A stretch of 26,646 nt of DNA from a virus. The notes under the pieces were generated by a model that was not told the origin of the DNA, made no database searches, and was given only the letters and a program-made list of their open reading frames with translations. Location of the stretch: positions 1 to 26,646 of IMG/VR virus record IMGVR_UViG_3300043446_003860. One strand, given 5' to 3'. How positions within the stretch are numbered: the stretch's first letter is position 1; each line of letters begins with the position of its first letter. The position numbers were made by a program, and so were the translations under genes. Shown here in pieces: positions 5,696 to 21,376 of this stretch.

Positions 5696-6004
5696 CTAAT
5701 GTATGCTGACAACGACATCCGTGTGTGTCAAGCCATAATCACCTTTCCATCCTTCCTCGTTTTTTCCAAATACGATATGTTCTTCTCCTTCTAGAGCATT
5801 ATATATGACCATATCTGGAAAATTTGGATCAATTTCCTTGCTGTATTGAAAATGTTGACGTGTTTGCTCGGATTGTAAGAACTGATCAAACTCCGATATT
5901 ACTTGTTGCAACGGAGTGCTACGAACGATCACGACCCCTCTTCCATTTCCACCAAGCTGTTTTACATGAGTAACAATGAATATAAAAAGATTTACTCGAT
6001 TCAT
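5696..6004 (-). CDS. Hypothetical protein, 102 aa
   Basis: Begins with MNRVNLFIFIVTHVKQLGGN and ends with EHIVFGKNEEGWKGDYGLTH. It looks like a small alpha/beta protein with a hydrophobic N-terminal strand that is too short and mixed to be a secure membrane segment. Its ATG overlaps the stop of the glycosyltransferase above by 4 nt (6001-6004), and dUTPase follows after 8 nt. No family recognised. The coupling suggests translation with the glycosyltransferase, not necessarily a shared function. Confidence 0.65.
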   Translation of the reverse strand: MNRVNLFIFIVTHVKQLGGNGRGVVIVRSTPLQQVISEFDQFLQSEQTRQHFQYSKEIDPNFPDMVIYNALEGEEHIVFGKNEEGWKGDYGLTHTDVVVSIH

Positions 6005-7212
6005 ATCTTGATAAGGTCCGCGCTAATATCTCTTACAACTTTGGTCTTCATCTTGAATGCACCAAGCTCAAACTCGGAATTGTTTTCCACACCATCTTCA
6101 GATAAAATATCAGTAAGTTTCATAAGAATGGCGGAATTGCTACTTCCATCTCGCATGAAATCATCTTGACTGAAATACAACAAGATGTCGTTATTTACCT
6201 CCTCAATGTATCCATGATTGAGTACTCGCTTTTTTAAATCAATCTTCGTGGTTGGCTGCTCTTTTTCTATGTATCTTTCAGCACAAACCATATTGTCTAC
6301 AAAGATATTGGTTGCCCAAGGTTCAACAAAATGCAGAAAGTCTTCAGATAAGACGTTTGTCAATACGAAGCCGATATTGTATACAGGATGCTTGATTGGG
6401 TGATGGTTTTCATCAAACATCATCCAACGATGCCATTTGCGAAGATAGTTACGTCTTGCTCTGTTCTGATAGAACTTGAACATATCATCGTCTTTGCCCA
6501 CACCATTTTTTGCCCAGCTTCTGTGTCCTCTGCTGATCCAATGCCAACATAGGCTATCTCTGCTTTGAATCATCTTGTATCCAGCTAAATGAAAGCGAAG
6601 AAACAAGTCGGCATCTTCTTCTGGGTATGGAGCAAAACTCTTTGCATCATGTCCACCAATGGCCAAGAAGTCTTCTTTGCTTATCAACCAAGGAGCAAAT
6701 ATTCCATTTGATGTTTGATCCTTGCGATCTTTTTCTTCCTGCTCAACAAATGTTAGAAAGTCCTTGTATTTGAAATCGAAGTATTCAAGACCAAAAGGCT
6801 TCAGAATCTTCTCTTTTCCAGATGGATAAATACCCTCTGGTTCAATGCGGGTGGCACATACAACTGTCTTTTCATTCCAATGCTTCAACAGATTAGCCAA
6901 ATAGTTCTTAGTGCATATCATATCACTGTGAAAAATGGTAACAAGAGGATTCTTTGCCATCTTGATTCCCATATCATACGTTATGGTGTGACCAAGAATG
7001 TTTCCAGTTTTATTTGCCCAAAATCTCAAGTTATCATCCAAGTGAAGCTGTAGTTCAAAATACTCTGCGCTTTGATCTTCACTACCGTCATCCATCACAA
7101 TGATCTCGTTCTCTGGATAATAATCTCGTAGGCTCCTATATGCCATCAGCGTATAATTCAATGTATTATACGACGGCATTATAATTGAAATGTCTTTGGT
7201 CGTGTATTTCAT
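6001..7212 (-). CDS. GT2-family glycosyltransferase
   Basis: 403 residues. An N-terminal GT-A domain begins ISIIMPSYNTLNYT, then IIVMDDGSED (37-46), and the position of the usual metal-binding DxD reads TIFHSDMI (92-99). Further along, LISKEDFLAIGGHD and PYPEEDADLFLRFHLAGYKM supply the ED-containing acceptor/base region typical of GT2. The C-terminal ~130 residues (from ~LRKWHRWMMFDENHH) are extra and unassigned. It transfers a sugar from an activated nucleotide sugar, donor and acceptor unknown. It shares the HSDM variant with the transferase at 7620-8510. The start overlaps the stop of the small gene above by 4 nt. No membrane segment, so cytoplasmic. Confidence 0.88.
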   Translation of the reverse strand: MKYTTKDISIIMPSYNTLNYTLMAYRSLRDYYPENEIIVMDDGSEDQSAEYFELQLHLDDNLRFWANKTGNILGHTITYDMGIKMAKNPLVTIFHSDMICTKNYLANLLKHWNEKTVVCATRIEPEGIYPSGKEKILKPFGLEYFDFKYKDFLTFVEQEEKDRKDQTSNGIFAPWLISKEDFLAIGGHDAKSFAPYPEEDADLFLRFHLAGYKMIQSRDSLCWHWISRGHRSWAKNGVGKDDDMFKFYQNRARRNYLRKWHRWMMFDENHHPIKHPVYNIGFVLTNVLSEDFLHFVEPWATNIFVDNMVCAERYIEKEQPTTKIDLKKRVLNHGYIEEVNNDILLYFSQDDFMRDGSSNSAILMKLTDILSEDGVENNSEFELGAFKMKTKVVRDISADLIKI

Positions 7213-7391
7213 ATTTTCCCGTGGTCGATTCCAACAATATCAAGCATCTGCTTTTCCTTTTCAGTCATGCTGTTAAAATGCTCGTGCATTTCTTCCTTGA
7301 TCTGATTGATCTTGGCGCGAGGAGAATCCTCGTCTATACAACGCTGTAACTTGTAGTATAACTCAAAATACTTTCTAGCGGCTTCTGTCAT
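7209..7391 (-). CDS. Small helical protein, 60 aa
   Basis: MTEAARKYFELYYKLQRCID, then KINQIKEEMHEHFNSMTEKE: two charged helices with a Pro-Arg turn between them, the pattern of many small uncharacterised phage proteins. It overlaps the gene above by 17 nt and the glycosyltransferase below by 4 nt (ATGA). No catalytic or metal-binding motif. It could be an accessory or regulatory peptide, but nothing identifies a partner. Confidence 0.65.
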   Translation of the reverse strand: MTEAARKYFELYYKLQRCIDEDSPRAKINQIKEEMHEHFNSMTEKEKQMLDIVGIDHGKI

Positions 7392-7623
7392 ATTTTTTAA
7401 TTTCTTCAGTAACTTCTATTTCTTTCCAACGCTCATAGCACATTTGACTTTCACAGTTGTCATCAAATACGAGAGGATGTTTTCGATGTTCATACAGAAA
7501 TGCTTGAAGGGCATCCATGTACTCTTTTTTGGTATATACGCGGATGTCAGTGTATACCGAAGATTGAGCAATCCACAGGTGACATTTACATTGAGTGCAA
7601 GCGATTGAATATGTTTGGCTCAT
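7375..7623 (-). CDS. Small Cys-rich protein, 82 aa
   Basis: MSQTYSIACTQCKCHLWIAQ has CxxCxC near the N-terminus, then DALQAFLYEHRKHPLVFDDN and ESQMCYERWKEIEV. The N-terminal CxxC with a later EHRxHPLVF segment is the look of small zinc-ribbon phage proteins; the second metal-ligand pair is not a clean CxxC, so zinc binding is only likely. It overlaps both neighbours (4 nt with the transferase above, 17 nt with the gene below). Function unknown. Confidence 0.65.
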   Translation of the reverse strand: MSQTYSIACTQCKCHLWIAQSSVYTDIRVYTKKEYMDALQAFLYEHRKHPLVFDDNCESQMCYERWKEIEVTEEIKKYDRSR

Positions 7624-8510
7624 AGTTGATTATGATAAATAGATTTATTTTGATTGTACCTTCTTCGCATCTCGTCGGTCACTTTGATGAAACCATATTC
7701 ATCATATGATGGCGGTTCTCCCCACAATGTCAACCATGTTTTAAAGTTTTTCTGTTCGCTTATCTTTTGTCTATCGGATGTTCCAGTCAACTTATCATGT
7801 TGACCAAGGAAATGACTGCTGCGTGCTCCAAAGTGCCAAGTCAATGCTTTACCAGTTACAACAAAGTCATATCCATGCAACTGCATAAGCACACTCTGCA
7901 TATGATCTTCAAATGAACTTGGTGCAAAGCGTTCATCGTTTGGAATGAAATACTTTGTACGCATCATATAAGATACACCTTCTACTTTTCTAAAGTTCGG
8001 TGCGTTTGATCCTGCAAATGAATAATCTACCCAATCCAAGAACTCATTCTTTTTGAAATCGTGGTAGTATGCCCCAAATCCCTCCGTTGTATCTGGAGGA
8101 GCAAATATTGTACCGAGTCTATCTGTATTGTTGAATATGTTGGGTTCAAGACGCCAAGCACACGCTAATATAGGCTTTTCAGTATTGGATACAATATCAA
8201 ACAAAGGCTTGTCATAATAGCGACTAATATACATGTCACTGTGAATGAGGTTAAAGTACTCTGTTTTGACTTGTTTAATTGCTTCATTTACTCCTCCTCC
8301 TATGCCTTTCGGCACTTTGTTATCTTCATAAATACACTGTATATCAGATTGTGAGAGTAGCCAATCACGAGTTTCTGTGTCATTCTCCGTATAAACAATG
8401 ATAGGCTGGTTCTTGTGATACGCATTATCACGTATAGACTCAACCGCCAATTTCAAATATGGCAGCGATTTGTAGCTGTTAATGATCCAAGTGTATAGAT
8501 GTTCACTCAT
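7620..8510 (-). CDS. GT-A (GT2-like) glycosyltransferase
   Basis: I start it at the ATG at 8510, whose ATGA overlaps the stop of the gene above (8507-8510); an in-frame ATG three codons earlier is possible. 296 residues: YTWIINSYKSLPYLKLAVES, IIVYTENDTETRDW (~37-50), GGGVNEAIKQVKTEYFNLIH, then HSDMYIS (90-96) where DxD is expected, and SSFEDHMQSVLMQLHGYDFV with the Glu-Asp pair. HSDM is the same variant as in the transferase at 6001-7212, so the two may be paralogues using a similar donor. WHFGARSSHFLGQHD is rich in His near the C-terminus. Sugar and acceptor unknown. Confidence 0.82.
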   Translation of the reverse strand: MSEHLYTWIINSYKSLPYLKLAVESIRDNAYHKNQPIIVYTENDTETRDWLLSQSDIQCIYEDNKVPKGIGGGVNEAIKQVKTEYFNLIHSDMYISRYYDKPLFDIVSNTEKPILACAWRLEPNIFNNTDRLGTIFAPPDTTEGFGAYYHDFKKNEFLDWVDYSFAGSNAPNFRKVEGVSYMMRTKYFIPNDERFAPSSFEDHMQSVLMQLHGYDFVVTGKALTWHFGARSSHFLGQHDKLTGTSDRQKISEQKNFKTWLTLWGEPPSYDEYGFIKVTDEMRRRYNQNKSIYHNQL

Positions 8511-8800
8511 GATTTCCATCCGCTGTCATTTTTCAAATCAAGTTGAGCTTGAACATATCTCTTAATGACTTCATCAAAGAAAAGTTGTGCGCTTTCTTCT
8601 GCATCACCCTCAAACTTCATAGTGCCATCATTCCAATCCAGTTCTCCGACTTTGGTTCTATCTTTGTAAAAAGATACGGTGTATGCAGGCGGTACATACA
8701 GACTGGTGTTCAGCAATATATCAGATGAATAATTTATTTTTAAATCCATCTGCTCTGGTTTTATAAAATCAAACTCAAGCTGTATTTCAGTTGTATACAT
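8507..8800 (-). CDS. Hypothetical protein, 97 aa
   Basis: Starts at the ATG at 8800 (MYTTEIQLEFDF) with GGAG 4 nt upstream; an earlier TTG at 8827 is in frame but would need to override this site. It has alternating strands (YVPPAYTVSFYKDRTKVGEL, DWNDGTMKFEGDAEESAQLF) and a C-terminal helix (FFDEVIKRYVQAQLDL), a layout common in small conserved phage proteins of unknown function. It lies between two glycosyltransferases, overlapping one by 14 nt and the other by 4 nt. No enzyme motif. Confidence 0.72.
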   Translation of the reverse strand: MYTTEIQLEFDFIKPEQMDLKINYSSDILLNTSLYVPPAYTVSFYKDRTKVGELDWNDGTMKFEGDAEESAQLFFDEVIKRYVQAQLDLKNDSGWKS

Positions 8801-9560
8801 ATGTCTCCGCTTTCTTTCGTAATTCAATATATTCTCTCAACAGATTTTTCTTTGAGAAGAAATTATTCTGTCCAGTTTCCGCTCTCATGCAATAGGTTGG
8901 TATATCAAGTCCCGCCACTCCTTTTTTTACCGTGAGTGAATTGTGATGTAATACACAACAGCGATCAACCATACCAAGCTTCCAACCATTGTTTCTTGCT
9001 ACAAGTGCAAAGTAAAAACAAATGCCCCAACCATACATCAGATCCTCGTCTATCTTTTTTACTTCCGCGAGCAATCTCCTACTGATTAATGGACATTGAA
9101 AATCAATATAATCAACTGGTCTAATATCTCTCGCGCTCCAACTATGCATGCTTTTCCAATGGCACTGCCCCTTTGGTTCAACGTTATAAAACGAAGGAGA
9201 CACAATGTCATACTTTGTTTCTTGACTTCCCCATTTACCTGCAAATATTTCCTCAAACATTTCTTCTCTCAGAGATCTTACAAAGTGATATGGATGAACC
9301 GTGAGATCGTTGTTAAGAAAAAGCATGCTGTCATATTGTTCATTTTCCAATGTATATTGCATAGCGGCGTTAAATCCGCCACCAAAATACACATTCTCAC
9401 CTAATTCAAACGAAGTATGCTTGCTCTTGCCTTCTGGTGTTGAACCATTGTCGATTACAAACAAGTCGTAATCATATCGCTCATACGGCTTGAGCGACTC
9501 GTACAACATGTCTGTATAATCGGGTAGATTATGATTTAGAATGAATGTCGCTGTTTTCAT
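8787..9560 (-). CDS. GT2-family glycosyltransferase
   Basis: 257 residues. TATFILNHNLPDYTDMLYES opens a GT-A fold; LFVIDNGSTPEG (33-44) is the nucleotide-binding turn, NVYFGGGFNAAMQY follows, and FLNNDLTVHP (81-90) places NND at the metal-binding position, as in rhamnosyltransferase-like GT2 enzymes (WbbL and relatives). The later segment EDLMYGWGICFYFALVARNN matches the usual (E)D-WG-D-D acceptor region loosely. Donor and acceptor unknown. Its stop lies inside the start of the small gene below, and its start overlaps the membrane protein gene above by 32 nt. Confidence 0.86.
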   Translation of the reverse strand: MKTATFILNHNLPDYTDMLYESLKPYERYDYDLFVIDNGSTPEGKSKHTSFELGENVYFGGGFNAAMQYTLENEQYDSMLFLNNDLTVHPYHFVRSLREEMFEEIFAGKWGSQETKYDIVSPSFYNVEPKGQCHWKSMHSWSARDIRPVDYIDFQCPLISRRLLAEVKKIDEDLMYGWGICFYFALVARNNGWKLGMVDRCCVLHHNSLTVKKGVAGLDIPTYCMRAETGQNNFFSKKNLLREYIELRKKAETYVYN

Positions 9561-9984
9561 CTTCTTCGTATTCTACATCCCCATTTAAAATTTTCATATT
9601 AATGCTTTTTGCATTCATCTGAGCTTCTTCAATCAGGAATTTTTTATTTGGATGCACCGTGTCAAAATACAATTGTAGCTCCTCTTCGCTGTCGGCAAAC
9701 ATCATGAAATGATCACTGTCCCCAGATTCTCTGCATTTAAATAGTTTATATTCTGTGGTCACCACTTCGGTATATCCTGCATCATATTTGAATACATCGG
9801 ATATAAGAGTTAGCTCTATCATAATCATCAAGCCATTACTTGCAGTCTTTATTATGTCAGAAAGTAGGGTATCATTCATCCATTGAACTTTAAGCGCCAA
9901 CAACCCAGATATTGCCAATGGTAATGCGATTATTGCAAATGCAAATGTGAGATAATATGCAAACGGCTTCTTTTGTTTTGTCAT
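9529..9984 (-). CDS. Two-helix membrane protein, 151 aa
   Basis: Lys-rich N-terminus (MTKQKKP), then a hydrophobic segment at ~9-31 (YYLTFAFAIIALPLAISGLL) and a second at ~44-63 (IIKTASNGLMIMIELTLI). The remaining ~85 residues form a soluble acidic domain (DSDHFMMFADSEEELQLYFD, then DVEYEEDENSDIHSKS). It is an inner-membrane protein with both ends probably cytoplasmic. AAGGA is 8 nt before the ATG and a promoter at 10054-10082 lies above, so this gene heads a transcription unit feeding several glycosyltransferases. It could anchor or regulate them, but that is inferred from position only. Confidence 0.75.
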   Translation of the reverse strand: MTKQKKPFAYYLTFAFAIIALPLAISGLLALKVQWMNDTLLSDIIKTASNGLMIMIELTLISDVFKYDAGYTEVVTTEYKLFKCRESGDSDHFMMFADSEEELQLYFDTVHPNKKFLIEEAQMNAKSINMKILNGDVEYEEDENSDIHSKS

Positions 9985-10053
9985 AAAATTATTCCTTCGG
10001 TTGTTTCAATGAAGTAAAAAGACTGTATGATATATTCGCCATAACAATTGGTG

Positions 10054-10082
10054 AATATGCACCAAAGGTACACAAGAGTCAA
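10054..10082 (-). promoter_or_regulatory. Promoter with its -10 in the loop of an inverted repeat
   Basis: Minus strand TTGACT (10077-10082), 17-bp spacer, CATATT (10054-10059). It lies between the FkbM methyltransferase stop and the membrane protein start at 9984, giving a leader of ~60 nt. The -10 hexamer is exactly the loop of the 6-bp inverted repeat TTGGTG/CACCAA (10048-10053 and 10060-10065), which could also act as a weak terminator. Confidence 0.6.
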
Positions 10083-10083
10083 G

Positions 10084-10662
10084 CTATAATAGCTTTGCAG
10101 TTGCGTTTGGGCCTTGAAGAGATGACACTTTGTATCCAATGGATGTAAGATACTCGGCTAGATCATCCAACTTTTGTCCTCTTTTGTTCGTACCATCGAC
10201 GTGGCTGCACTCAAATGTCATTTCTTTTATCTTATACTTGGCAAAGTCGATGCTTTTTATTATCCTATAGTCATATCCTTCAGCATCAATGAAGAGATGG
10301 TCAAGTTCGTTCAAATTGTACTTTTCCATCAATGCCGCAAAAGTAAGCACAGGCACCTCCAATGTTCCCATGTCCTTTGGCTTGCATCCTAGTTCCAACA
10401 AATGCTCTTTTCTGAATGAACTGGTCTCATAGTTGCTGTTCAATTGATAGTAGAACGGCATACTTTTAATAGTAGGATCATCCACTATTCCGATATTTTC
10501 TATCACCGCTTGTGGCAGATTCTTGTATGTGTCCTTCAGCGCTTCTATTAACGGCGGCATTGGTTCAATCAAAACCGCCAATTTCAATGAATTTTTAATC
10601 GAGTGTAGGAATTCATTGACAAGATCAATACCATTATTAGTACCTATTTGTATTATATTCAT
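10084..10662 (-). CDS. FkbM-family SAM methyltransferase
   Basis: 192 residues with FkbM family signs: the SAM-binding motif I IIQIGTNNGIDLVNEF (3-18), AVLIEPMPP (29-37) with the acidic ribose-binding Glu, ENIGIVDD, and HLFIDAEGYDYRIIKSIDF with the conserved IDxEGxD motif. FkbM enzymes O-methylate sugars or polyketide-like acceptors. Located within ten glycosyltransferase genes, it most likely methylates a hydroxyl of the glycan being built. It is shorter than typical FkbM proteins (~230-280) because it starts almost directly at motif I. It overlaps the gene above by 4 nt, and the promoter of the next unit abuts its stop. Confidence 0.85.
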   Translation of the reverse strand: MNIIQIGTNNGIDLVNEFLHSIKNSLKLAVLIEPMPPLIEALKDTYKNLPQAVIENIGIVDDPTIKSMPFYYQLNSNYETSSFRKEHLLELGCKPKDMGTLEVPVLTFAALMEKYNLNELDHLFIDAEGYDYRIIKSIDFAKYKIKEMTFECSHVDGTNKRGQKLDDLAEYLTSIGYKVSSLQGPNATAKLL

Positions 10663-11372
10663 AAAATGGACTCTGACAATATCTTATTCCAATTTTTGAA
10701 TGGACTCAGCCATTTTGTTTCTCCGTGTGTGGAATACCCCGGCATAGGAGAAACAAGCAATCTCTCCTTCGATCTCAGTTCCAAAAACATCTGGTGATCG
10801 TTGGGATGCACTCCAGAAATCCATTTGTCGAATATTCCCTTGTCTTCCTTAAGAGTCTTTACTCTTGCCGAAAATGTCATAGTAGTGCTGTCTGCCGTTC
10901 TCCAATATCCGCTCTTTGATCTGAAGATATACTCCGACTTAATTCCCTCTTCCATTTCTTTGTCTGGGTGCGCATATAAAGTGACATATTCTACCATAAC
11001 ATCCAATAGATTATATCCTTCCAATAGCATTTCTTTTGAACCAACATCGTGGATATAGTCGCCTTCAACAAAATACACGATTTCATTCTCATCAAAATTC
11101 TGAATGGCATATTCCAATGCAAACTTGAACGATCCCGCATTTCCATTGTTTGTGTCAATGACGATTGGGCATGCTCCAAAATTTATTTGCTTAACAACGG
11201 AATCAAACTGTGTATGCGTGGATGAATTGCAATTGTCTCTTATCAACACAAGATCCGACAGATCTCTATTCAGGAAATTTACGCAGAAGTTCCTAAAACA
11301 ATTCTCGTTGTTTACAATTGGAAGCTTTTGTTTTGGATATCCTCTGTCGCTAAATCTGTATATTACTTTCAT
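10659..11372 (-). CDS. GT-A-like glycosyltransferase
   Basis: 237 residues, MKVIYRFSDRGYPKQKLPIV at the start. A GT-A signature is seen in VLIRDNCNSST (42-52), IDTNNGNAGSFKFALEYAIQ (72-91) and IVYFVEGDYIHD (98-109), where EGD replaces DxD. GVHPNDHQMFLELRSKERLL follows near the C-terminus, before THGETKWLSPFKNWNKI. This architecture occurs in phage and giant-virus glycosyltransferases of unknown specificity. It overlaps neighbours by 4 nt on both sides. The family is less certain than the canonical GT2 proteins here. Confidence 0.72.
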   Translation of the reverse strand: MKVIYRFSDRGYPKQKLPIVNNENCFRNFCVNFLNRDLSDLVLIRDNCNSSTHTQFDSVVKQINFGACPIVIDTNNGNAGSFKFALEYAIQNFDENEIVYFVEGDYIHDVGSKEMLLEGYNLLDVMVEYVTLYAHPDKEMEEGIKSEYIFRSKSGYWRTADSTTMTFSARVKTLKEDKGIFDKWISGVHPNDHQMFLELRSKERLLVSPMPGYSTHGETKWLSPFKNWNKILSESIL

Positions 11373-12133
11373 GTTATTGGAATTTTCAAATATGGTTCAA
11401 CGATATCATATTCTCTGTCTCCAAAGATGACATCTTTGCCTCTGAATGGTTGTTCAAATTCTTTTTCCACAAGCACAGACCAATCAAGATCCTTGTTATG
11501 GCCCCATGATTTTACCTTTTTTAGCATTCCTTCCTTGGAACGTACCCATGAAAAGTGATGAGAGAATGGAAATCCATCCAATTTGCATTTGTCCATTCTC
11601 ATTTCTTCTGGGAGACACCAAAACATCGCCTTTCGCTCTTCCTGATGAAAAATAATATTGTCGTTTTGAGTTAATGGACCCGATTTTACCAATGCTATTG
11701 CCTCTTCCCAAGCCTTGAGTCTGTATTTGAATTCCCTAAAATACCAATAACACGCCAATCTATAGCTTTGTTTTAGATCATTCTGCTGTTGCGACCACCA
11801 TCTGATGAATTTATCTGGTTCAATCACTTCGTCCACATCAAGAAACATGAAATAATCAGTGTCTTCTGGAGCGCTCATTATTCCCAGCTTTCGGCATGCA
11901 TTATGGTGCCATCTGGAACTTTGGGATGGATCATATTCAAATTCTATGAATTCCGCCTTTGGATTCTCCGCAATTCCCTTGTTTATAAGTTCTCTGTTTT
12001 CCGATGTTCCATCCAAGAAATGATCGCAATATGCCACAATAACTTTTTCGGAGAAAGGTAAAACTCCATCCACACATGGTTTCAAGAACATGTGGTCGAT
12101 AGTACAATAGTTTATAACGGATGTTATTTTCAT
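11369..12133 (-). CDS. GT2-like glycosyltransferase, 254 aa
   Basis: The start is the ATG at 12133, which overlaps the TGA of the methyltransferase above (ATGA, 12130-12133); an earlier TTG would extend it pointlessly through that gene. MKITSVINYCTIDHMFLKPC, EKVIVAYCDHFLDGTSEN (~29-46), DYFMFLDVDEVIEPDKF (~93-109) with the DxD-type motif DVDE. It resembles transferases that lack the full N-terminal DDGS turn and have HFLDGT in its place. The rest is rich in Trp/His/Phe (WWSQQQND, FSHHFSWVRSKEG), likely acceptor-binding. Donor unknown. Confidence 0.8.
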   Translation of the reverse strand: MKITSVINYCTIDHMFLKPCVDGVLPFSEKVIVAYCDHFLDGTSENRELINKGIAENPKAEFIEFEYDPSQSSRWHHNACRKLGIMSAPEDTDYFMFLDVDEVIEPDKFIRWWSQQQNDLKQSYRLACYWYFREFKYRLKAWEEAIALVKSGPLTQNDNIIFHQEERKAMFWCLPEEMRMDKCKLDGFPFSHHFSWVRSKEGMLKKVKSWGHNKDLDWSVLVEKEFEQPFRGKDVIFGDREYDIVEPYLKIPIT

Positions 12134-12720
12134 TTTTTTACGAATAAAGCATTGATCAAGTGTTTTTCTGTCCATCTTGGATCTTGTTCGCAATGTTCAC
12201 ACTTTATAGTTTCAAAATCATTTCTTTCCATTAATTTCGCAAGCTTTTCTGGAGTATAAAAGCTTCTATGGTGAGGATCTTGGTATGCTTTCATGTATGG
12301 GATGCTTACAACCAAATGTCCTCCAGACTTCAAACCAGCCGTTGAGTTCCTTATGAATGCATCTGAATGTTTCTCAATGATATGTTCGATCACATGAAAT
12401 GAAATTGCAGTATCATACGTCATGTCATCTATCTTTGTCTCCACCAAATTGGCACAAATAAATTTGAATGGGATTGAAATTTCTTTTAAATTTTTTTCAA
12501 AAGTTTCTTTGACTTTTTCGTTTATATCCACACCAGTTATGGATGTCACCTTCTCGTTTTTCCCCAACCAATAGGTTATCCCTCCAGTATTACATCCTAT
12601 GTCCAATACATTTCCATGTATCAAAGATTCATATTCTTCCAACAGAATAACCGTGGAATGTTTTTTCCATGGGCCGTGACCACCATCCATGACATAATCT
12701 TCGCTGGTGTAATTTTCCAT
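12130..12720 (-). CDS. Class I SAM methyltransferase
   Basis: 196 residues. Motif I NVLDIGCNTGGITYWL (37-52), acidic ribose-binding residue in ITGVDINEKV (61-70), AISFHVIEHI (105-114) at motif IV/post-IV, GGHLVVSIPYMKAYQDPHH with the typical post-motif strand, and FYTPEKLAKLMERNDF. It belongs to the Methyltransf_11/23-type group, often found in polysaccharide and O-antigen clusters where members O-methylate a terminal sugar. Flanked by GT and methyltransferase genes with a 4-nt overlap below and 1 nt above. Substrate unproven. Confidence 0.87.
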   Translation of the reverse strand: MENYTSEDYVMDGGHGPWKKHSTVILLEEYESLIHGNVLDIGCNTGGITYWLGKNEKVTSITGVDINEKVKETFEKNLKEISIPFKFICANLVETKIDDMTYDTAISFHVIEHIIEKHSDAFIRNSTAGLKSGGHLVVSIPYMKAYQDPHHRSFYTPEKLAKLMERNDFETIKCEHCEQDPRWTEKHLINALFVKK

Positions 12721-12721
12721 A

Positions 12722-13294
12722 TCATTCTTTTCTCTTACACACCCACGCTATCGATTGAAATAGATCCGACTGATGATCAACCAGCCCGTATTTGGAACAT
12801 ACTTCGGATATTTGAGATTCCTGCAATTCCAACCAATCCCACACTTTTCCCCTAATATGCTCATTAAAAAAGGTTGAAGATTTAGAATAATCATGTCCCA
12901 TGATGAAATCTCCAGATTTCATGTATTGAGAAAGTGTATTAAATTCCGCTGCTTTGTTTCCACCATCACACATGATCAATTTTTTTCCATTCGAGTTCAA
13001 TATCTCAAGTGCTTCTTGGTTGTTTACCTCGTTTTCTCCAAAAATATTGACTATTTTCACCTCTATCCCACATTCGATCAGTTTGGGGTGTTCTTCTTGC
13101 GTGGATATATCATAACTAACAATTCTTGAGTTTGGCGATGCATCTCTCAGATATCTTGTTAATCCTCCATTGAGTGTTCCAATTTCAATGATGATGTCAA
13201 ATTTTTGCTCCTCCAAAAATGGGCCAATCACATGTCCAAAATGCTCATGTTGTGCCGCTCTGAATCCCTTGTAGTGTGTAAATCCGTGTATCAT
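12722..13294 (-). CDS. Class I methyltransferase-like (CmcI-like) protein
   Basis: 190 residues. IIIEIGTLNGGLTRYLRDAS (34-53) is motif I with GTxxGG, IVSYDIS follows as motif II, then KLIMCDGGNKAAEFNTLSQY and SGDFIMGHDYSK, the pattern of cephalosporin-hydroxylase-like (CmcI) SAM enzymes and sugar O-methyltransferases, where the Asp after the strand helps bind metal. The N-terminus MIHGFTHYKGFRAAQHEHFG is short. It is probably an O-methyltransferase acting on a sugar of the glycan island. It overlaps the gene above by 4 nt. Confidence 0.78.
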   Translation of the reverse strand: MIHGFTHYKGFRAAQHEHFGHVIGPFLEEQKFDIIIEIGTLNGGLTRYLRDASPNSRIVSYDISTQEEHPKLIECGIEVKIVNIFGENEVNNQEALEILNSNGKKLIMCDGGNKAAEFNTLSQYMKSGDFIMGHDYSKSSTFFNEHIRGKVWDWLELQESQISEVCSKYGLVDHQSDLFQSIAWVCKRKE

Positions 13295-13863
13295 GTCAAG
13301 TTTAAATTAATGTTGTTGTTAAAAAATACAATTCCCGTGCCAGAAAAATGACCATATTGTGTTATATCATATTTTTCATGCTTTATTTCAGACCAAAATC
13401 TTTCCATTTCCTCGCTAAGATGTATGTCATCACACATCATTATTCCTTTCCAATTGTTTTCCACTAGGAAATTATAGAACCATATTTCGTTGTGATAAAG
13501 ATGGTCGATGTCCAAGAATATGAACTCCGACTTCAGAATTTCAGATTGTATTCGCTGATCGGTCTTGAAGTCCCCAATGCAAAACTCTATGTTGCTTGAT
13601 GGTATGTCATTTCTGAATACTCCAACGTCCAAGCTGAGAACTTTATTATTCTTATTCTGGGATAATGCGATTGCCGACGCGCCTCGGTACGTTCCAATGT
13701 CAGATATTTGAATGTTGTCAAAGCAATACCCAAGATGTATCAATAGTCTATAATGTTCTTTTCCAGATTCCAAATGGAACCATTGATTCGCATCTGGATG
13801 AATATGTTCTATATGCGAAGTTGATATGCAGTCCAAAATTACATTAGATAGTGAAATTTTCAT
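13291..13863 (-). CDS. Class I SAM methyltransferase (Methyltransf_24-like)
   Basis: The start is the ATG at 13863, overlapping the stop of the gene above (ATGA, 13860-13863); an upstream GTG is less likely. 190 residues: ISDIGTYRGASAIALSQNKN (motif I), VLSLDVG, then SEFIFLDIDHLYHNEIWFYN with the metal-ligand-like DIDH, and KGIMMCDDIH. This arrangement (GxYxGxSA..., LDxDHxY, DDxH) is that of macrocin-O-methyltransferase/Methyltransf_24 proteins that O-methylate sugars or phenols. This part of the window looks somewhat more AT-rich (NNNINLNLT at the end). Inferred substrate: a glycan hydroxyl. Confidence 0.82.
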   Translation of the reverse strand: MKISLSNVILDCISTSHIEHIHPDANQWFHLESGKEHYRLLIHLGYCFDNIQISDIGTYRGASAIALSQNKNNKVLSLDVGVFRNDIPSSNIEFCIGDFKTDQRIQSEILKSEFIFLDIDHLYHNEIWFYNFLVENNWKGIMMCDDIHLSEEMERFWSEIKHEKYDITQYGHFSGTGIVFFNNNINLNLT

Positions 13864-14759
13864 GATATTTTCGAAATATGTTCTTGAAGCTTTCCGCTGA
13901 ATTGTTCCCACACTTTACTCTTATGTACATCAATGTCAATGGGATTAAAATGAATGTATTTATTATAATGATTTTCGACTATATATTTTTTGCCAATCTC
14001 CGTCACAACCACGTTTCGCATGACATATTGAGATGCGTTTGCTGATTTGTAATTCAATGAAAATGCCGTCAACCATGTATCGTCTGGTCCATACGGTCCT
14101 ATAAAGTCTGGCACCGTTGCTGCTTGTAGCAAATCGTGGGATATGCACGTGAACCACCCTCCGCCAAACTTTATGGATGATATTTTTTCTATATAAGGTG
14201 AGTCCAATTCCTGAGCCACTTGATTTATAGAATACATATCGAAGTAATCTCTATGATTATGCGGTTCTTTTAAATATTTTTTATTGGTTATGATGTCCCA
14301 AGAAGAATCCCAGTATCGTATAAGTTCTGGTGTGATGATGTAATTTTTTTCAGAAATTTGTTTAATCGCTACCTCAACGACCTGTAAAATATGCATCGGA
14401 AAATACATGTCGGGGTCCAGCCATACAAATAAATCACATTTGTTCTTGTATTTGATGCTGTCATTTCTGCGTTTCGCCGCGCTGCCAAAGCAATTTAAAT
14501 TATGATTGATGTCGAAGTCCAAATCGCACCAATTGCAAAGAACTTTTAGGTTTTCAAACTTATCTATGAAAAATTGTTTTGGAATTTTTGATTCTTCCCA
14601 TCTCACTCTATGATCATCGGACGCATCCATTGTGATGGATAGTGTGTATTTCGTGTCACCTGACCGAAAACATGATGCCTCCTTCAAGTTTATGAGTATT
14701 CTTTCCAAGCCATCTATTTCCCAAGGAAAGATAAAAATACTGAATACAACATGTTTCAT
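13860..14759 (-). CDS. GT-A-like glycosyltransferase, 299 aa
   Basis: I place the start at the ATG at 14759 (MKHVVFSIFIFPWEIDGLER), 4 nt after the preceding stop; an ATG at 14813 would overlap the fucosyltransferase by 50 nt and add 18 non-conserved residues. YTLSITMDASDDHRVRWEES (38-57), DINHNLNCFGSAAKRRNDSI (83-102) and DLFVWLDPDMYFPMHILQ (109-126) with DPD as the metal-binding motif indicate a GT-A fold, and YGPDDTWLTAFSL provides a later acidic pair. Donor and acceptor unknown. The C-terminus is rich in Lys, His and Trp. Situated between the fucosyltransferase and a methyltransferase. Confidence 0.75.
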   Translation of the reverse strand: MKHVVFSIFIFPWEIDGLERILINLKEASCFRSGDTKYTLSITMDASDDHRVRWEESKIPKQFFIDKFENLKVLCNWCDLDFDINHNLNCFGSAAKRRNDSIKYKNKCDLFVWLDPDMYFPMHILQVVEVAIKQISEKNYIITPELIRYWDSSWDIITNKKYLKEPHNHRDYFDMYSINQVAQELDSPYIEKISSIKFGGGWFTCISHDLLQAATVPDFIGPYGPDDTWLTAFSLNYKSANASQYVMRNVVVTEIGKKYIVENHYNKYIHFNPIDIDVHKSKVWEQFSGKLQEHISKIS

Positions 14760-14763
14760 GTCA

Positions 14764-15570
14764 TCAATTATACATGTTTTGCGTTGGTTGCCAAGGTTGC
14801 AATTTTCTTTCATGCTTCAGCACCTTCCAAGATGGATAATACAACCCCTTGCCTCTGCCATCATAATTTGGACCATACCACGGATCTGGTATAACGATGT
14901 TACCACCTCGGGTATTCAGATATGCTCCCCACCAAGCAAACGTGCTGTTGGAAAGCACAAGATTTGGCATTCTGGACATAAGAAACAATTGAGACCCAGC
15001 GTCACCTTCCACATATACAACATGTTTTCCAAACATTCTCTTACACCAATCAAAATCGTCTGAAAATACAAACAATTGGTCGCAATGTTGACAATACCTT
15101 TCAAGTGCCTCGTTGTAATATTTTTCTGCAAGCACACAGTGATTTTGCTGCAACATCAAATAGTCGCCACGACGAACACTGACGCCTGCGGCATTTATAG
15201 ACATTTCCAAGGTCGATATTCTTTCGTATATCTCATCGTTTGGAACGAAGTATTTGTATATCAAATCTTCCCTAATGTCATCAAAATATTCATATGACTG
15301 ATAAAATCCATTCAAAGTTAGATTTTTCAGATTTGGAATTGGAAAGTAAACATCTTCCTTTTCCTCGTGTCTGGTGTTTTCTTGTGGCAACTCTCCTCGC
15401 GGAAAATTATATCCAAACATACTTAGGTCAACAGGTCTTGTTCCCCTGTGTCCTGCATATGTGGTGTGAGGAAATATTACATCGTCTCCGGATTTTTTTG
15501 CCACAGAGAGTGTGGCGGCAATCTGAAACATGTTATTACCAAGTCTACCGTTGAATGCGCAGCTGTTCAT
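14764..15570 (-). CDS. GT11 alpha-1,2-fucosyltransferase-like protein
   Basis: 268 residues. GRLGNNMFQIA (8-18), the inverting GT11 N-terminal signature; SVRRGDYL (131-138), where the family usually has HxRRGDY (the His is Ser here); FVFSDDFDWCKRMF (167-180); and LSNSTFAWWGAYLN (206-219), the strongest GT11 block. GT11 enzymes transfer L-fucose from GDP-fucose to galactose in an alpha-1,2 link, as in O-antigens and Helicobacter Lewis antigens. No GDP-fucose synthesis gene is visible, so the donor would be the host's. It overlaps the downstream methyltransferase above it by 4 nt. Confidence 0.92.
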   Translation of the reverse strand: MNSCAFNGRLGNNMFQIAATLSVAKKSGDDVIFPHTTYAGHRGTRPVDLSMFGYNFPRGELPQENTRHEEKEDVYFPIPNLKNLTLNGFYQSYEYFDDIREDLIYKYFVPNDEIYERISTLEMSINAAGVSVRRGDYLMLQQNHCVLAEKYYNEALERYCQHCDQLFVFSDDFDWCKRMFGKHVVYVEGDAGSQLFLMSRMPNLVLSNSTFAWWGAYLNTRGGNIVIPDPWYGPNYDGRGKGLYYPSWKVLKHERKLQPWQPTQNMYN

Positions 15571-16193
15571 TTTTTGACTATTACACTTGTGATGCTATGG
15601 AAAAAATCTTTTTCGTGCAATTGAAATATTTTTGCGGATTCAAAATTTTCAGCCAAATAACTTATCTGCTTTTCATCTGCAAATGGTGTCTGCACATCAA
15701 ATTTTTTGAAAATCCTATACAAAAAATCATATGTTGTTACTGGATCTCCACTGGGATTATATTGTTTTCCCAAAAAAGAGGTATGCAAATCTTCGATAAT
15801 ATAGACTCCCTTGGATTTCAAACATGGAAACAAAGTCGCGAAGGATGATATTTGATGATCGATCATGTGACTGCCATCATCTATGATGATATCATATTCT
15901 GGAATTAATGCTGTACATTTTTCCAAGATGTCCTTTGGATTTTTTTGATCTGCAATCACTGTTCTGGTATATTGGCTATCATATTGCTTCTTGTCGAGAA
16001 TATCCACTCCAATTATGCTTGGGTTGCCATAAAATTCTTCCCACATTTTCAACGAAGCACCGTCATAAATTCCTATTTCAAGAATGGATGGATTTATGTA
16101 TTTTTCCAAATATGGATAGTAGAATTCAGTAAAGCCATGCCCAGTGGCTTTATCCGTGTTATATTTCAATCCAAGTTCCGTTAATCTGTCCAT
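15567..16193 (-). CDS. MycE-like sugar O-methyltransferase
   Basis: I start it at the ATG at 16193 (MDRLTELGLKYNTDKATGHG), one nt below the preceding stop; an in-frame alternative at 16331 would lie inside the upstream gene. 208 residues: FYYPYLEKYINPSILEIGIY, GASLKMWEEF (motif I), IIGVDILDKK, YDIIIDDGSHMIDHQISSFA and CLKSKGVYIIEDLHTSFLG. The blocks IDDGSHxxxHQ and IEDLHTS are characteristic of SAM enzymes related to mycinamicin 2''-O-methyltransferase MycE, which methylate sugar hydroxyls with a divalent metal. This is the clearest sign that the glycan is O-methylated. Confidence 0.88.
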   Translation of the reverse strand: MDRLTELGLKYNTDKATGHGFTEFYYPYLEKYINPSILEIGIYDGASLKMWEEFYGNPSIIGVDILDKKQYDSQYTRTVIADQKNPKDILEKCTALIPEYDIIIDDGSHMIDHQISSFATLFPCLKSKGVYIIEDLHTSFLGKQYNPSGDPVTTYDFLYRIFKKFDVQTPFADEKQISYLAENFESAKIFQLHEKDFFHSITSVIVKK

Positions 16194-16194
16194 A

Positions 16195-16875
16195 TTATCC
16201 ACGCCCCATGTTGGCATCTCTGGACCAGTTCTTGTTGTAGAACATATTTTGTGCACGTTGACGGTCAATTGTCTTGTCGTGAATAATAGACCACTCGACT
16301 TCTTTTGGCAAATTTGCCGTGACAGTGGCACCAGTTATTGTTTCATGCAATGGTTTGTGCCATTGAATCTTTAGGCTATTTTTGTATATACGAGACTGAT
16401 AGTCGCCGTGATTCCAATTTATGATTGGATGCTCTCCAAACTGTGGCAATTTGCTTAGATGCCATCCCCATGTTATTGCATCTTGCTCTGTTGCGCCACG
16501 GACAATATTCACACGTGGAACTCTATACAATTCCACCGTTGGATTTGCTTTAAGTAACTCTTGCATATCCGTCAAAAAGCTTGGCCACAAATACTCATCC
16601 GCATCAAGTTGGACAATATAATCTCCAACGCAGCGTTTTCCACCGTAATTTTTATGCTCGGCAAAGTTCTTATTTAGGGCATGTTGTATTACAGTAAACC
16701 CATACGTTCTTGCATTATCCAATATCTTTTTTGTATCCTCGTTGTCCGAGAAGTCATCAAGAATGACGACTTCATCGCTGGGGGCATTGGTGTCGAGATG
16801 AGTTTTGAGCTTCTCGATCAGTTCAAGAAGCTCGCGTGTCTCATTCTTGCAAGTTACTAAATAACTTATTTTCAT
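16195..16875 (-). CDS. GT2-family glycosyltransferase
   Basis: 226 residues. ISYLVTCKNETRELLELIEK, VVILDDFSDNED (37-48), FAEHKNYGGKRCVGDYIVQL and LDADEYLW (90-97) with the DAD metal-binding motif. HGDYQSRIYKNSLKIQWHKP, LHETITGA supplies a His-rich acceptor region typical of WaaE/beta-1,4-glucosyltransferase-type GT2 proteins. It is cytoplasmic, with no membrane segment. It overlaps the GT4 above by 4 nt. Sugar donor unknown. Confidence 0.9.
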   Translation of the reverse strand: MKISYLVTCKNETRELLELIEKLKTHLDTNAPSDEVVILDDFSDNEDTKKILDNARTYGFTVIQHALNKNFAEHKNYGGKRCVGDYIVQLDADEYLWPSFLTDMQELLKANPTVELYRVPRVNIVRGATEQDAITWGWHLSKLPQFGEHPIINWNHGDYQSRIYKNSLKIQWHKPLHETITGATVTANLPKEVEWSIIHDKTIDRQRAQNMFYNKNWSRDANMGRG

Positions 16876-18167
16876 CCTACTGTTGATGCTGAAACTTTCT
16901 TGAATTTTGGCAATGTGATTGCGACCTTCTTTTCAAATGAAGGAATATTTTTTTCCAAAATGTCTATCAGTACTTTATTTCCGTTTTCCAGTGTGAATTT
17001 TTCAGAATTTTGGATGCGCAGTTTCTCGGCATTTGGAATATATTTTATGTAATTTTCAAACATATCTTCCAATTTTTGAGCGGCCACACTATAATTTATG
17101 GTAAACCATTTTGCTTCTTTTATTAACCAATCGTTGCATGCGCTTTGAGGAACATGGTCTATGGCACCGGGCAACAAATTTGCCAATTCGGTTGGTAGGA
17201 AGTCAAGCTGTCCGCTCCATCCAGAAGCAAGCAACGGCTTTCCACTCAATGTGGCTTCCAACAATGGACGACCAAACCCTTCACCATGTGTGAAACTTAC
17301 ATGAGCCTTTATCTTTGGATGATTGTATAGTCTATTAAGCTCAATTGGATCCAATTCTCCGTGAATCAAATATACATTTGGAAGATCTCCGGACATATTT
17401 TGACGTATGTCATGTATCTTTTTCAAGATATCAGTCCTATCCATCTTGGAGAATGTTGCACCGCTAGTCTTCAATACAAGGGCTGGCTTGTTTTTCTTGT
17501 TCTTGAACACCTCGCTGAAAACTTTTACAAGCATTCCGATGTCTTTTCTGTCCGCACCAAGATCACCTTGCAGCCAATGGCCAACCATTAAAAAGCAAAA
17601 ATCCTCACCTATCGCATTTAATGCCGTGTCTATTCCTTCCGACGGTTCTGATGTTTTCTTGTATACACTTGTATCAACACCTTCAAACGCAACTTCAATT
17701 GGTCTATTCAATGTAATTTTCTCAGATGTTCCGTTTTCCAATTTCTTTTCGTATGATGCCCTAATAAATATCTCTTTTGAAAAGTTTGAAGGGACGATGT
17801 TAAGGTTCATTCTATTAAGACCTTCTACCCACTCTGGCTTTGGAACGGTGCTTTCTATTCCGGCAGTTATACCCACATTGTATTTTCCTATTGGTCTGAA
17901 TTCATTTGGTATAGATACCTGAACGAATAGATCTGGCTGTTCAGTCAATCTGTTGATTATTTTGCTCTTTACCTCTTTGACCATTGGACGGCTTTCATCA
18001 TCCAACATTGTGTTTGGGCAAACTCCCCATCGCATGGGAACGATTTTCACATCAAATTTCCCCCAGTTGATTAAAGCCGTGGCAATTTGAAATGTATGAT
18101 CACCATATCCAGAGCGAGATGCCACTGGACCCTGAAGTACACACACTGGTTTAATTTCGTTGCTCAT
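16872..18167 (-). CDS. GT4-family glycosyltransferase
   Basis: 431 residues, a GT-B fold. N-terminal VLQGPVASRSGYGDHTFQIA (10-29) replaces the usual glycine-rich acceptor loop; IEVAFEGVDTSVYK (157-170) is the inter-domain linker, CFLMVGHWLQ begins the donor domain, and THGEGFGRPLLEATLSGKPL (293-312) has the E296-x7-E304 motif of GT4 retaining transferases that contacts the nucleotide sugar. The C-terminal ~80 residues are helical. AAAGG lies ~7 nt before the ATG. The small coiled-coil gene lies 21 nt above and a GT2 gene below with 4 nt overlap. Confidence 0.9.
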   Translation of the reverse strand: MSNEIKPVCVLQGPVASRSGYGDHTFQIATALINWGKFDVKIVPMRWGVCPNTMLDDESRPMVKEVKSKIINRLTEQPDLFVQVSIPNEFRPIGKYNVGITAGIESTVPKPEWVEGLNRMNLNIVPSNFSKEIFIRASYEKKLENGTSEKITLNRPIEVAFEGVDTSVYKKTSEPSEGIDTALNAIGEDFCFLMVGHWLQGDLGADRKDIGMLVKVFSEVFKNKKNKPALVLKTSGATFSKMDRTDILKKIHDIRQNMSGDLPNVYLIHGELDPIELNRLYNHPKIKAHVSFTHGEGFGRPLLEATLSGKPLLASGWSGQLDFLPTELANLLPGAIDHVPQSACNDWLIKEAKWFTINYSVAAQKLEDMFENYIKYIPNAEKLRIQNSEKFTLENGNKVLIDILEKNIPSFEKKVAITLPKFKKVSASTVG

Positions 18168-18188
18168 TTATAACCTTTTTTTGTTTTA

Positions 18189-18539
18189 TTATGGATTTGT
18201 TCCCGCTGTATTTTGATCGTCCTGCTCCGCGAAAACAGCGAATATTTCACTGACCACATCGCTGATCTCGTCCTTGTATTCTTGTGCCTTGGCTTTCTTT
18301 TCCTTGGCAATTTCAAGACGCTTCTTTGTTGCTTCAAAGACACGACCCTTGGCAGCTTCTTCTGAAATTGCCTTCAAGTCCTTTTTTTCATAGGTATCCT
18401 GAATTTCATTCTTCAGTTCCTTATCTTCTTCGGCATAACTCTTCATTTCTGCCTTCTTGTCCTTTTCAAGTTCAAATAGTCTCTTTGTAAGATCATAAAT
18501 CTTGTTTTTTGCTTCGTCTGTTGTTAGTGGTTTTGCCAT
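18189..18539 (-). CDS. Coiled-coil protein, 116 aa
   Basis: MAKPLTTDEAKNKIYDLTKR and then a long run of charged helix (ELEKDKKAEMKSYAEEDKEL, AKGRVFEATKKRLEIAKEKK), with a short disordered Gly/Thr/Pro tail (DDQNTAGTNP). The heptad-like Leu/Ile/Val positions suggest a coiled coil, possibly oligomeric. It sits between the two GT4 genes and could be a scaffold for them, but it may be unrelated; no family recognised. The ATG at 18539 lies 9 nt after the previous stop with no Shine-Dalgarno. Confidence 0.7.
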   Translation of the reverse strand: MAKPLTTDEAKNKIYDLTKRLFELEKDKKAEMKSYAEEDKELKNEIQDTYEKKDLKAISEEAAKGRVFEATKKRLEIAKEKKAKAQEYKDEISDVVSEIFAVFAEQDDQNTAGTNP

Positions 18540-18548
18540 AATATTTTA

Positions 18549-20024
18549 TTAGTTGAATTTTTTAAGCGCTTCTTCTCTGTCGATCTTTGGTAGAATGAAT
18601 CCGAGTTTCTTATCTGGCATGTTATGCCCTACGAATTCATCATGGCGATGAATATTGAATTTTTCTCTACCTTTCCAATTTTCCAACATCATGTCAATAC
18701 CAACCGCCATGTTCTCGCACATTTTTTCCGAACTGAGACCATCTGGTCCAATTAGCCACTCGCGTCCCTTCAATCCTCTTGCCTTGCGATTTTCTCTTCC
18801 AACTTCATACCAATGCATCATTGCCACAGCCGCGTCTTCCCAACGAGCATAATCTGCAAGAATATATGGGGTTGGAATACTACCCTGAACCATTCTTGCT
18901 GCTGGAAATATCGGAGTGGCCCAAGTACCATGACTCTTGTATCTTCCATCGGCATTTGTGCCCCATTCAATATTGAATTCAATTGGTTTTCCATTTTCAT
19001 CTGTGAATCCGCATTGATCCTGCAATCCGCCAGTTACTGTGACGATAATCGGCGTGCCAGCCGCGATGCTTTCCGCAGTTCCCAAACCAAATCCCTCATT
19101 GTCGGATAGATTAATGGTCACATCCGCAATGTTGTAGTATTGATTCAGACGCTCTGGCATGATCTTGTCTGTACTGAATATCACATCATAATTTGGACAA
19201 AATGCTGTTTTGCATGCATTAAGATCTGTACCTGCCTCGTCAGAAGGAGTCGTGTGCATGAATAGCACACATTTCTTTGCTTCTTCTGGTGTTAGATTAT
19301 CACAAAAGTTGCGATATGCAAGCATTATTGTCGATGTCTGCTTGCGACGAATATTTCTGTTGTTATAGAACAACACGAAATTGTAATCTTTCTTGAATAG
19401 TTGCTTTCTTAGTACAGTAAGCTCTTTCAATTCTTGATCAGTCGTCAATGGTCTAAATGTCTTGGTATTGATACCATGAGGAACGTATGTTACTTTTGTA
19501 GGATTATTAAGCGCAGTTCCAAGAACTCCTTCGACGATGTTTTTGGTCTGCTTGCTGATGCAGCCAATCCAATCACAGCTTTCATAGAATGCTCGATTAT
19601 ACATCGGATATGGAAGATCATCCCATATGCTGTAAAATCCTATGGGCATTCTTTGGCGAAGTTCACGCTCCATTTGATACAGCCAATTCCAAAATCTTGG
19701 ATCAGTGAAGTGAATCAATGCATCTGGCTTTTCCAAGTTTATGACCTCGTTTAATATTTCAGCATTACCGTAACCGTCTACGGGATACAAGCGTACATAT
19801 GAATCTGTGATTCCCGCCATTTGGTTGGCAGCACCGTCCAGATTCAATATTTTGCCTTTTTCAGGATGTTGAATACTACCTGCCAACTGAACCCAGTTGT
19901 ATTTTCCAGCTAGACCCGTTACAAACTCTCTTGCCATTGTGGCAATACCAGAATGCATTCTTAGGTCGTCGCACAGTAGTATGATTTTCTTTCTGTCCTT
20001 TTGAGGAATATAACCATTTGCCAT
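18549..20024 (-). CDS. GT4-family glycosyltransferase, 491 aa
   Basis: A large GT-B transferase and the first gene of the glycan operon. IILLCDDLRMHSGIATMARE (14-33) supplies the N-terminal acceptor-domain loop, KVTYVPHGINTKTFRPL (177-193) is the canonical linker of GT4, FVLFYNNRNIRRKQT (216-230) begins the donor domain, and SDNEGFGLGTAESIAAGTPI (307-326) contains E310-x7-E318 for donor binding. An extra segment after ~340 (TDENGKPIEFNIEWGTNADG) and a long C-terminus distinguish it from the GT4 at 16872-18167. A promoter at 20038-20065 lies 13 nt above the ATG. Sugar unknown. Confidence 0.9.
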   Translation of the reverse strand: MANGYIPQKDRKKIILLCDDLRMHSGIATMAREFVTGLAGKYNWVQLAGSIQHPEKGKILNLDGAANQMAGITDSYVRLYPVDGYGNAEILNEVINLEKPDALIHFTDPRFWNWLYQMERELRQRMPIGFYSIWDDLPYPMYNRAFYESCDWIGCISKQTKNIVEGVLGTALNNPTKVTYVPHGINTKTFRPLTTDQELKELTVLRKQLFKKDYNFVLFYNNRNIRRKQTSTIMLAYRNFCDNLTPEEAKKCVLFMHTTPSDEAGTDLNACKTAFCPNYDVIFSTDKIMPERLNQYYNIADVTINLSDNEGFGLGTAESIAAGTPIIVTVTGGLQDQCGFTDENGKPIEFNIEWGTNADGRYKSHGTWATPIFPAARMVQGSIPTPYILADYARWEDAAVAMMHWYEVGRENRKARGLKGREWLIGPDGLSSEKMCENMAVGIDMMLENWKGREKFNIHRHDEFVGHNMPDKKLGFILPKIDREEALKKFN

Positions 20025-21367: not shown

Positions 21368-21376
21368 ATTCGAAAC

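Follow-up and report, generated by a model that had tools for sequence, protein, structure and literature searches.

What does a phage build with a block of some 15 genes for adding and methylating sugars, and on which molecule is the product placed? The block in question occupies positions 5696-20024 of a 26.6-kb fragment of an uncultured phage of lake origin (IMG/VR record IMGVR_UViG_3300043446_003860; the whole stretch of 26,646 nucleotides is referred to as the window, and genes are named by their lower coordinate). It comprises 21 genes, all on the minus strand (21/21), in keeping with the single polarity claimed in an earlier note on this DNA, is 99% coding and has a GC content of 0.383 compared to 0.379 in the rest of the window. 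Consecutive genes share 4-nt overlaps at 10 of 20 junctions and lie within 4 nt at 13 of 20, so that the chaining by 1-4 nt overlaps described in that note applies to these junctions and not to the remaining ones. Comparison with relatives indicates that the listed starts of four genes are probably too long (for 15567, the listed start is 16331); shortening these genes to 11369-12133, 13291-13863, 13860-14759 and 15567-16193 gives tighter chaining than the raw list of open reading frames (ORFs) implies. Because the block was found again in dozens of contigs, it is real and not a chance arrangement. With a confidence somewhat above even, we take it to be an O-antigen-like locus of a deep T4-superfamily clade, whose glycan would be built on an acceptor that the phage itself encodes, with a virion protein as the likeliest candidate.

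The architecture of the locus was compared in relatives. Loci were drawn from viral contigs using the two GT4-family glycosyltransferases (GTs) of the island, 51 by GT4-1 (18549) and 72 by GT4-2 (16872), and 66 loci, near-duplicates among them, were compared by gene order. Read along the minus strand, the left-hand genes follow an almost invariable order (nuclease, small protein, GT4, GT4, GT2), with the GT2 gene 16195 occurring in nearly all loci, and the right-hand order 9529, 8787, 7620, 6001, 5696, dUTPase-like gene, IMPDH gene is retained in the close clade. The genes through 16195 on the left and from 9529 rightwards are present in most relatives whose loci extend there. The middle is hypervariable, its 737 ORFs falling into 180 families, 101 of which are singletons. 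According to the presence table, 13860, 14764 and 15567 occur in a few neighbours, 12130 and 12722 are confined to the window's own clade, and most relatives are devoid of the central window genes, despite a GT4-1 that is 75-86% identical and intact flanks. Constant ends around a hypervariable middle, with gene replacement between conserved flanks, clearly constitute an O-antigen-like architecture, and the block is kept together in close relatives, for which dispersal had been considered beforehand. Bacterial O-antigen and capsule loci likewise have fixed flanks, between which genes for GTs, methyltransferases and sugar nucleotides are exchanged; the island differs in residing in a phage and in having no flippase, polymerase, exporter or lipid-carrier initiator. 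In relatives, the middle slot contains genes for a DegT aminotransferase, UDP-glucose dehydrogenase, SDR/epimerase, GDP-mannose 4,6-dehydratase, a PglD-like acetyltransferase, a HAD-nucleotidyltransferase fusion and FkbM methyltransferases. The absence of nucleotide-sugar synthesis is therefore true of the window cassette and not of its relatives, and dependence on host donors alone, which had been suggested, is not the rule, because relatives hold nucleotide-sugar genes in the same slot.

Which phages carry this locus? Megablast of the island against phage records gave no match. The gp23 region lies beyond the reach of the window, and placement in the T4 superfamily was made via long relatives, of which G001, G002, G003, G009, immuto and Mel-JY01 encode gp23 (PF07068), bearing out the T4-like affiliation implied in the earlier note. 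By GT4-1, the nearest isolates are Flavobacterium phage immuto and Microcystis phage Mel-JY01, whose locus order matches. Rhodothermus phage RM378 has the GT4-GT4 pair followed by a ribonucleotide reductase gene and then two GT2-like genes, and the 484-kb uncultured phage LR756508 has nuclease, small protein and GT4-1, followed by sugar-type genes of its own. A convincing GT4-1 occurs in seven phage records, and these are exactly the seven closest by gp23 (at least 37% identity; the next has 32%). Their hosts come from three bacterial phyla; none of seven T4-like controls has GT4-1. Synechococcus phage S-EIVl was rejected as an eighth carrier, its match being partial, at 24%, and that of a generic GT4. 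When the 27 reciprocal best hits between G001 (185 kb) and immuto were ranked by bits per residue, GT4-1 came third and GT4-2 sixth, beside terL, gp23, gp21 and gp20; RM378 and immuto share no more than nine reciprocal hits, of which GT4-1 is one. In degree of conservation, the GT4 pair is thus roughly on a par with terminase, portal and capsid protein. At the right end, 8787 shows 57-92% identity in relatives, and the 6001 orthologue of G001 is 38% to that of immuto. The cyanophage marker psbA is absent from the carriers tested and present in two of three cyanophage controls. A search of cellular genomes for GT4-1 found none; from the rarity of Shine-Dalgarno sites (8% in G001 and 4% in immuto vs 52% in a T4 segment), the host may be Bacteroidota-like.

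How secure are the enzyme assignments? Of the ten GTs previously listed, seven are firm, two (8787 and 11369) are probable and one (13860) is unproven; of the five methyltransferases, three are firm, with weak matches making 12722 and 13291 probable only (Table 1). Pfam cut-offs are passed by the GTs 6001, 7620 and 16195 (GT2), 14764 (GT11) and 18549 (GT4), and the best PDB relative of GT4-1 is the chlorovirus NY2A GT B736L (7.8e-10). No Pfam match was found for 11369, and PDB profile searches with 10659, 11369 and 13860 returned nothing meaningful, dynein light chain matches to 11369 being judged chance. Structure prediction, which the earlier note had proposed as a check, gave a confident model for 10659, with Foldseek matches to POMGnT1 (best PDB match, E 4.6e-8), the LH3 GT domain and TarP; judged from this predicted fold, the assignment as a GT-A glycosyltransferase is firm. 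The AlphaFold model of 13860 was too poor to be used (pLDDT 54); this protein has no Pfam, NCBIfam or PDB match and is related to a family from other phage islands (97.9%). Profile comparison links 12722 (1.7e-5) and 13291 (1.3e-4) to the 15567 family, and the enzymes matched by 15567, demethylmacrocin O-methyltransferase (8ia9) and a MycE-type enzyme (3ssm), methylate sugars of macrolides. The predicted activities support the reading of a complex, O-methylated glycan; its fucosylation remains a guess from the GT11 family assignment of 14764.

Table 1. Features of the island and its flanks, listed in the order of the minus strand (SAM, S-adenosylmethionine; TM, transmembrane segment; aa, amino acids)
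Position	Strand	Assignment	Evidence
20357..21391	-	PD-(D/E)XK nuclease, constant left neighbour	Pfam PDDEXK_1 6.7e-18
20070..20279	-	69-aa conserved small protein between nuclease and GT4-1	28-94% identity in most loci
18549..20024	-	GT4-1, conserved core GT	Pfam Glycos_transf_1 8.5e-10
18189..18539	-	116-aa charged, probably helical protein between GT4 genes	no family match
16872..18167	-	GT4-2, conserved core GT	phrog_2170 glycosyltransferase 1.1e-15
16195..16875	-	GT2, conserved core GT	Pfam Glycos_transf_2 2e-17; cluster c0, 60 members
15567..16193	-	sugar O-methyltransferase, variable region	demethylmacrocin O-methyltransferase 8ia9 1.4e-24; MycE-type 3ssm 4.1e-22
14764..15570	-	GT11 (alpha-1,2-fucosyltransferase family), variable region	Pfam Glyco_transf_11 3.5e-24
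13860..14759	-	unassigned protein, GT unproven, variable region	DxD-like motif WLDPDMYFP only
13291..13863	-	probable class I SAM methyltransferase, variable region	O-methyltransferase 3tr6 E 0.005
12722..13294	-	probable class I SAM methyltransferase	FtsJ 6.2e-5, just below cut-off
12130..12720	-	SAM methyltransferase	Methyltransf_23 2.5e-15 (class I), passes cut-off
11369..12133	-	probable GT-A GT	conserved DxD motif (FxFLDxDE); profile match to GT2 family 1.4e-4 (single comparison)
10659..11372	-	GT-A fold GT, no family match	AlphaFold2 pLDDT 87.8; Foldseek
10084..10662	-	FkbM-type methyltransferase, variable region	Pfam Methyltransf_21 2e-13, passes cut-off
9529..9984	-	small membrane protein, 150 aa, 1-2 predicted TM, starts conserved right end	cluster c7, 21 loci
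8787..9560	-	probable GT-A/GT2 GT, conserved right end	Glycos_transf_2 0.0023, below Pfam cut-off
7620..8519	-	GT2 GT, conserved right end	Pfam Glycos_transf_2 8.1e-8
6001..7212	-	GT2 GT, conserved right end	Pfam Glycos_transf_2 5.6e-18
4884..5687	-	dUTPase-like, first non-glycan gene at right boundary	phrog_135 7.7e-23; TIGR00576 4.6e-14
3506..4510	+	IMP dehydrogenase/GMP reductase homologue, constant right flank, opposite strand	Pfam IMPDH 1.3e-46

To locate where the glycan would be assembled, membrane segments were predicted by a Kyte-Doolittle hydropathy scan of 783 cassette ORFs. None of the 783 has three or more predicted segments, therefore no flippase or polymerase is recognised among them, nor is an exporter as in O-antigen export; likewise, there is no multi-span ORF that could represent gtrAB-type membrane glucosyl-carrier/exporter genes as in seroconversion. 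The sole recurrent membrane protein in the cassettes is the 150-aa product of 9529. As far as predicted hydropathy can tell, this speaks against Wzx/Wzy and lipid-carrier systems and does not address a lipid A-core acceptor. It agrees with glycosylation of a virion, for which neither lipid carrier nor flippase is needed, and with the earlier suggestion of cytoplasmic assembly.

In the pathway we favour, a core oligosaccharide would be assembled in the host cytoplasm by the conserved enzymes at the ends (GT4, GT4 and GT2 on the left; 8787, 7620 and 6001 on the right). It would be attached directly, with no lipid carrier involved, to an acceptor encoded by the phage, for which a virion protein is the likeliest candidate. 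Outer sugars, possibly fucose, and O-methyl groups would come from the exchangeable genes of the middle, with relatives supplying nucleotide-sugar genes of their own, and close phage relatives would end up differing in outer sugars upon a common core. We infer a single pathway for these enzymes, a virion protein as its acceptor, and alteration of the particle surface as the purpose of the variation. The GTs required for virion glycosylation are phage-encoded (seven firm and two probable), and a phage-encoded acceptor is preferred over one on the host surface because the core GTs show capsid-like conservation among Flavobacterium, Microcystis and Rhodothermus phages. Several points weigh against this assignment. 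No obvious glycan tail could be seen in the sequences of gp23 and the tail tube, no acceptor protein or site was found in them, and family assignments are weak for several window genes. The island also sits among replication and nucleotide genes, away from structural genes, and a core gene found throughout the clade might accompany the capsid in inheritance for some reason besides acting on it. Finally, the absence of a flippase is compatible with a host lipid A-core acceptor, which is also built in the cytoplasm.

The last point leads to the alternative that the island remodels a host surface glycan, the lipooligosaccharide core or similar, excluding or misdirecting competing phages. The same idea was published for the GT genes of the pelagimyophage host-recognition island (PMC7029224). 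A host lipid A-core could be modified in the cytoplasm with no flippase required, the variable middle could follow variation of the host surface, and the conserved 9529 product is a possible membrane anchor or exclusion protein. We nonetheless regard host-surface remodelling as doubtful, if worth keeping in view, given that the core GTs and their order are common to Flavobacterium, Microcystis and Rhodothermus phages, whose envelopes differ, that capsid-level conservation is unexpected for an accessory exclusion role, and that neither lipid-carrier enzymes nor multi-span proteins are seen in the cassettes. A further possibility is that modified bases in the phage DNA receive the sugars, as an extension of the glucosylated hydroxymethylcytosine theme of T4. 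The T4 alpha and beta DNA glucosyltransferases are likewise phage-encoded in the T4 superfamily, although they belong to other GT families and depend on a hydroxymethylase, the family of which is absent in several island carriers. Sugar addition to DNA would fit a T4-superfamily phage in which genes for replication and dUTPase-like and dNMP kinase-like genes lie close by, virus GTs placing diverse glycans on DNA have been published (Pyle 2024, as cited in PMC12619734), and immuto and G003 carry 7-deazaguanine DNA-modification genes. However, no thymidylate synthase (ThyA)/hydroxymethylase family was found in G001, G002, G003 (185-kb, 297-kb and 166-kb) or Mel-JY01, and no homologue of immuto QueC/D/E, FolE or DpdA in G001, Mel-JY01 or the searched part of RM378, all of which have the core; G001 and Mel-JY01 are thus devoid of both routes of modified-base supply. 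DpdA was compared directly, the TGT family PF01702 having been dropped as a probe after it missed the annotated immuto DpdA. A search for TET/JBP oxygenases, run without a positive control, gave no match. Sugar methyltransferases, aminotransferases and acetyltransferases also suit surface glycans better, and modified DNA as the target is disfavoured and improbable, cytosine-methylation routes being outside the search. Among the targets named in the earlier note, DNA thus recedes, and the phage-encoded acceptor is favoured over the host surface by the conservation of the core GTs. As a separate observation, QueE, one of the queuosine-type 7-deazaguanine genes, is 95% identical between immuto and G003, though gp23 is 56%, which suggests recent transfer.

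Could the acceptor be a Thr-Pro-repeat protein, with the island extending mucin-type O-glycans started by a separate GT60 module? In protists, GT60 initiates mucin-type glycans and the Skp1 glycan (PMC8724618). GT60 is a polypeptide GlcNAc-transferase family of protist type, which here occurs in T4-like phages. Positions 103898-110803 of G001 encode a GT60 (PF11397, E 1.7e-59), two GT4-like proteins, a GT25-like protein, a GT11 and UDP-galactopyranose mutase, directly downstream of a Ser/Thr/Pro-rich, Thr-Pro-repeat gene. Across phages, a Ser/Thr/Pro-rich ORF lies nearby at 17 of 25 GT60 loci, ending 44-388 bp upstream in 14 of them; because the GT60 loci are related, these 14 pairings represent a few independent lineages. 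G001 to G004 hold both the island and GT60 with Thr-Pro-repeat genes, and counts of the Ser/Thr/Pro pattern reach 69, 13, 39 and 7 in four uncultured carriers vs 0-1 in eleven other records. At the GT4-core loci themselves, no Ser/Thr/Pro-rich ORF was found (0/119, over 1.9 Mb); immuto, Mel-JY01, RM378 and LR756508 have the core but lack both GT60 and Thr-Pro repeats, and no GT4-1 is seen in GT60 contigs 136-162 kb long, which are possibly incomplete. The window is a fragment, and the comparison was made in relatives, with its own genome represented by 26.6 kb. Since each occurs without the other, the GT60 module and the GT4 core are separable; Thr-Pro-repeat proteins are not supported as the island's acceptor, and a joint pathway has little chance of being correct. 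Given the module, phages of this group probably glycosylate proteins of their own. G001, the nearest long relative, has ten genes with Ser/Thr/Pro-rich (TP)n stretches of up to ~340 residues (L127:2113-7430, L129:12855-17617, L130:1018-3525) and also encodes a 3407-aa collagen-like GXY protein.

In function, the systems that come closest are chlorovirus capsid glycans, mycobacteriophage virion glycans and pelagimyophage GT islands. Chlorovirus (PBCV-1) capsid N-glycans have a conserved core made by virus enzymes, and the likeness extends to virus-encoded GTs, assembly independent of host organelles and a core glycan in all members (PMC7826918). The nearest PDB entry to GT4-1 is also from a chlorovirus, though this similarity is only at the general GT4 family level. 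Chloroviruses differ in being eukaryotic viruses with multidomain GTs and the major capsid protein as known acceptor, whereas the island has bacterial hosts, single-domain GTs in one operon-like block and a putative acceptor. Mycobacteriophages have glycans on capsid and tail tube (Freeman 2023, as cited in PMC12619734), and their phage-encoded GTs decorate virion proteins; the texts consulted on them describe no locus this large with constant ends and a variable middle. The pelagimyophage host-recognition island is likewise a hypervariable T4-superfamily island of GT genes, interpreted by its authors as modifying the host surface (PMC7029224). It is mixed with tail fibres, lies between structural genes and has mostly GT8, whereas the window island lies beside replication genes, has no fibre genes and starts with a conserved GT4-GT4-GT2.

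Virus-made glycans outside the host secretory route are already known in chloroviruses and, in simpler form, in mycobacteriophages. If the preferred reading of a glycosylated virion is true, widespread freshwater phages have a large locus with a fixed core and a swappable periphery, and phage particles have serotypes, affecting adsorption, masking, protection and the recognition of phages. More tentatively, and with less than an even chance of being right, one could envisage a T4-superfamily clade across several bacterial phyla with obligate cytoplasmic glycosylation, in which the core matches the capsid in being essential, cassette exchange of the outer sugars gives particle serotypes, and some members add a second, mucin-type GT60/Thr-Pro system previously known from protists. 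As immuto and RM378 are named phages with recorded hosts and carry the core, the acceptor question is directly testable.

Around the island, the nuclease occupies the matching position in relatives including immuto, Mel-JY01 and LR756508, and the dUTPase-like and IMPDH genes also retain theirs; in Mel-JY01, the IMPDH gene directly adjoins GT4-1. Relatives of the 18189 gene are shorter, or other small ORFs stand in its place, and 9529 has no family match. An Rfam scan of the window was empty. In one relative (G015, L158:353-2880), a 265-aa ORF with zinc-finger and homing-endonuclease-like character breaks up GT4-1 near residue 176-190, with no intron family match, and in Mel-JY01 GT4-1 consists of two adjacent ORFs, split at about the same place. 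A PIF1-like helicase gene lies within the glycan cassette in nine loci (cluster c20; e.g. L135:12531-13883), and the G006 cassette contains GroES/GroEL-like ORFs. In LR756508 (L178:15368-28608), GT4-1 is followed by several sulfotransferase-like (FxHVPKxAGTS) and GT25-like ORFs, which, judged by motif only, suggests a sulfated glycan.

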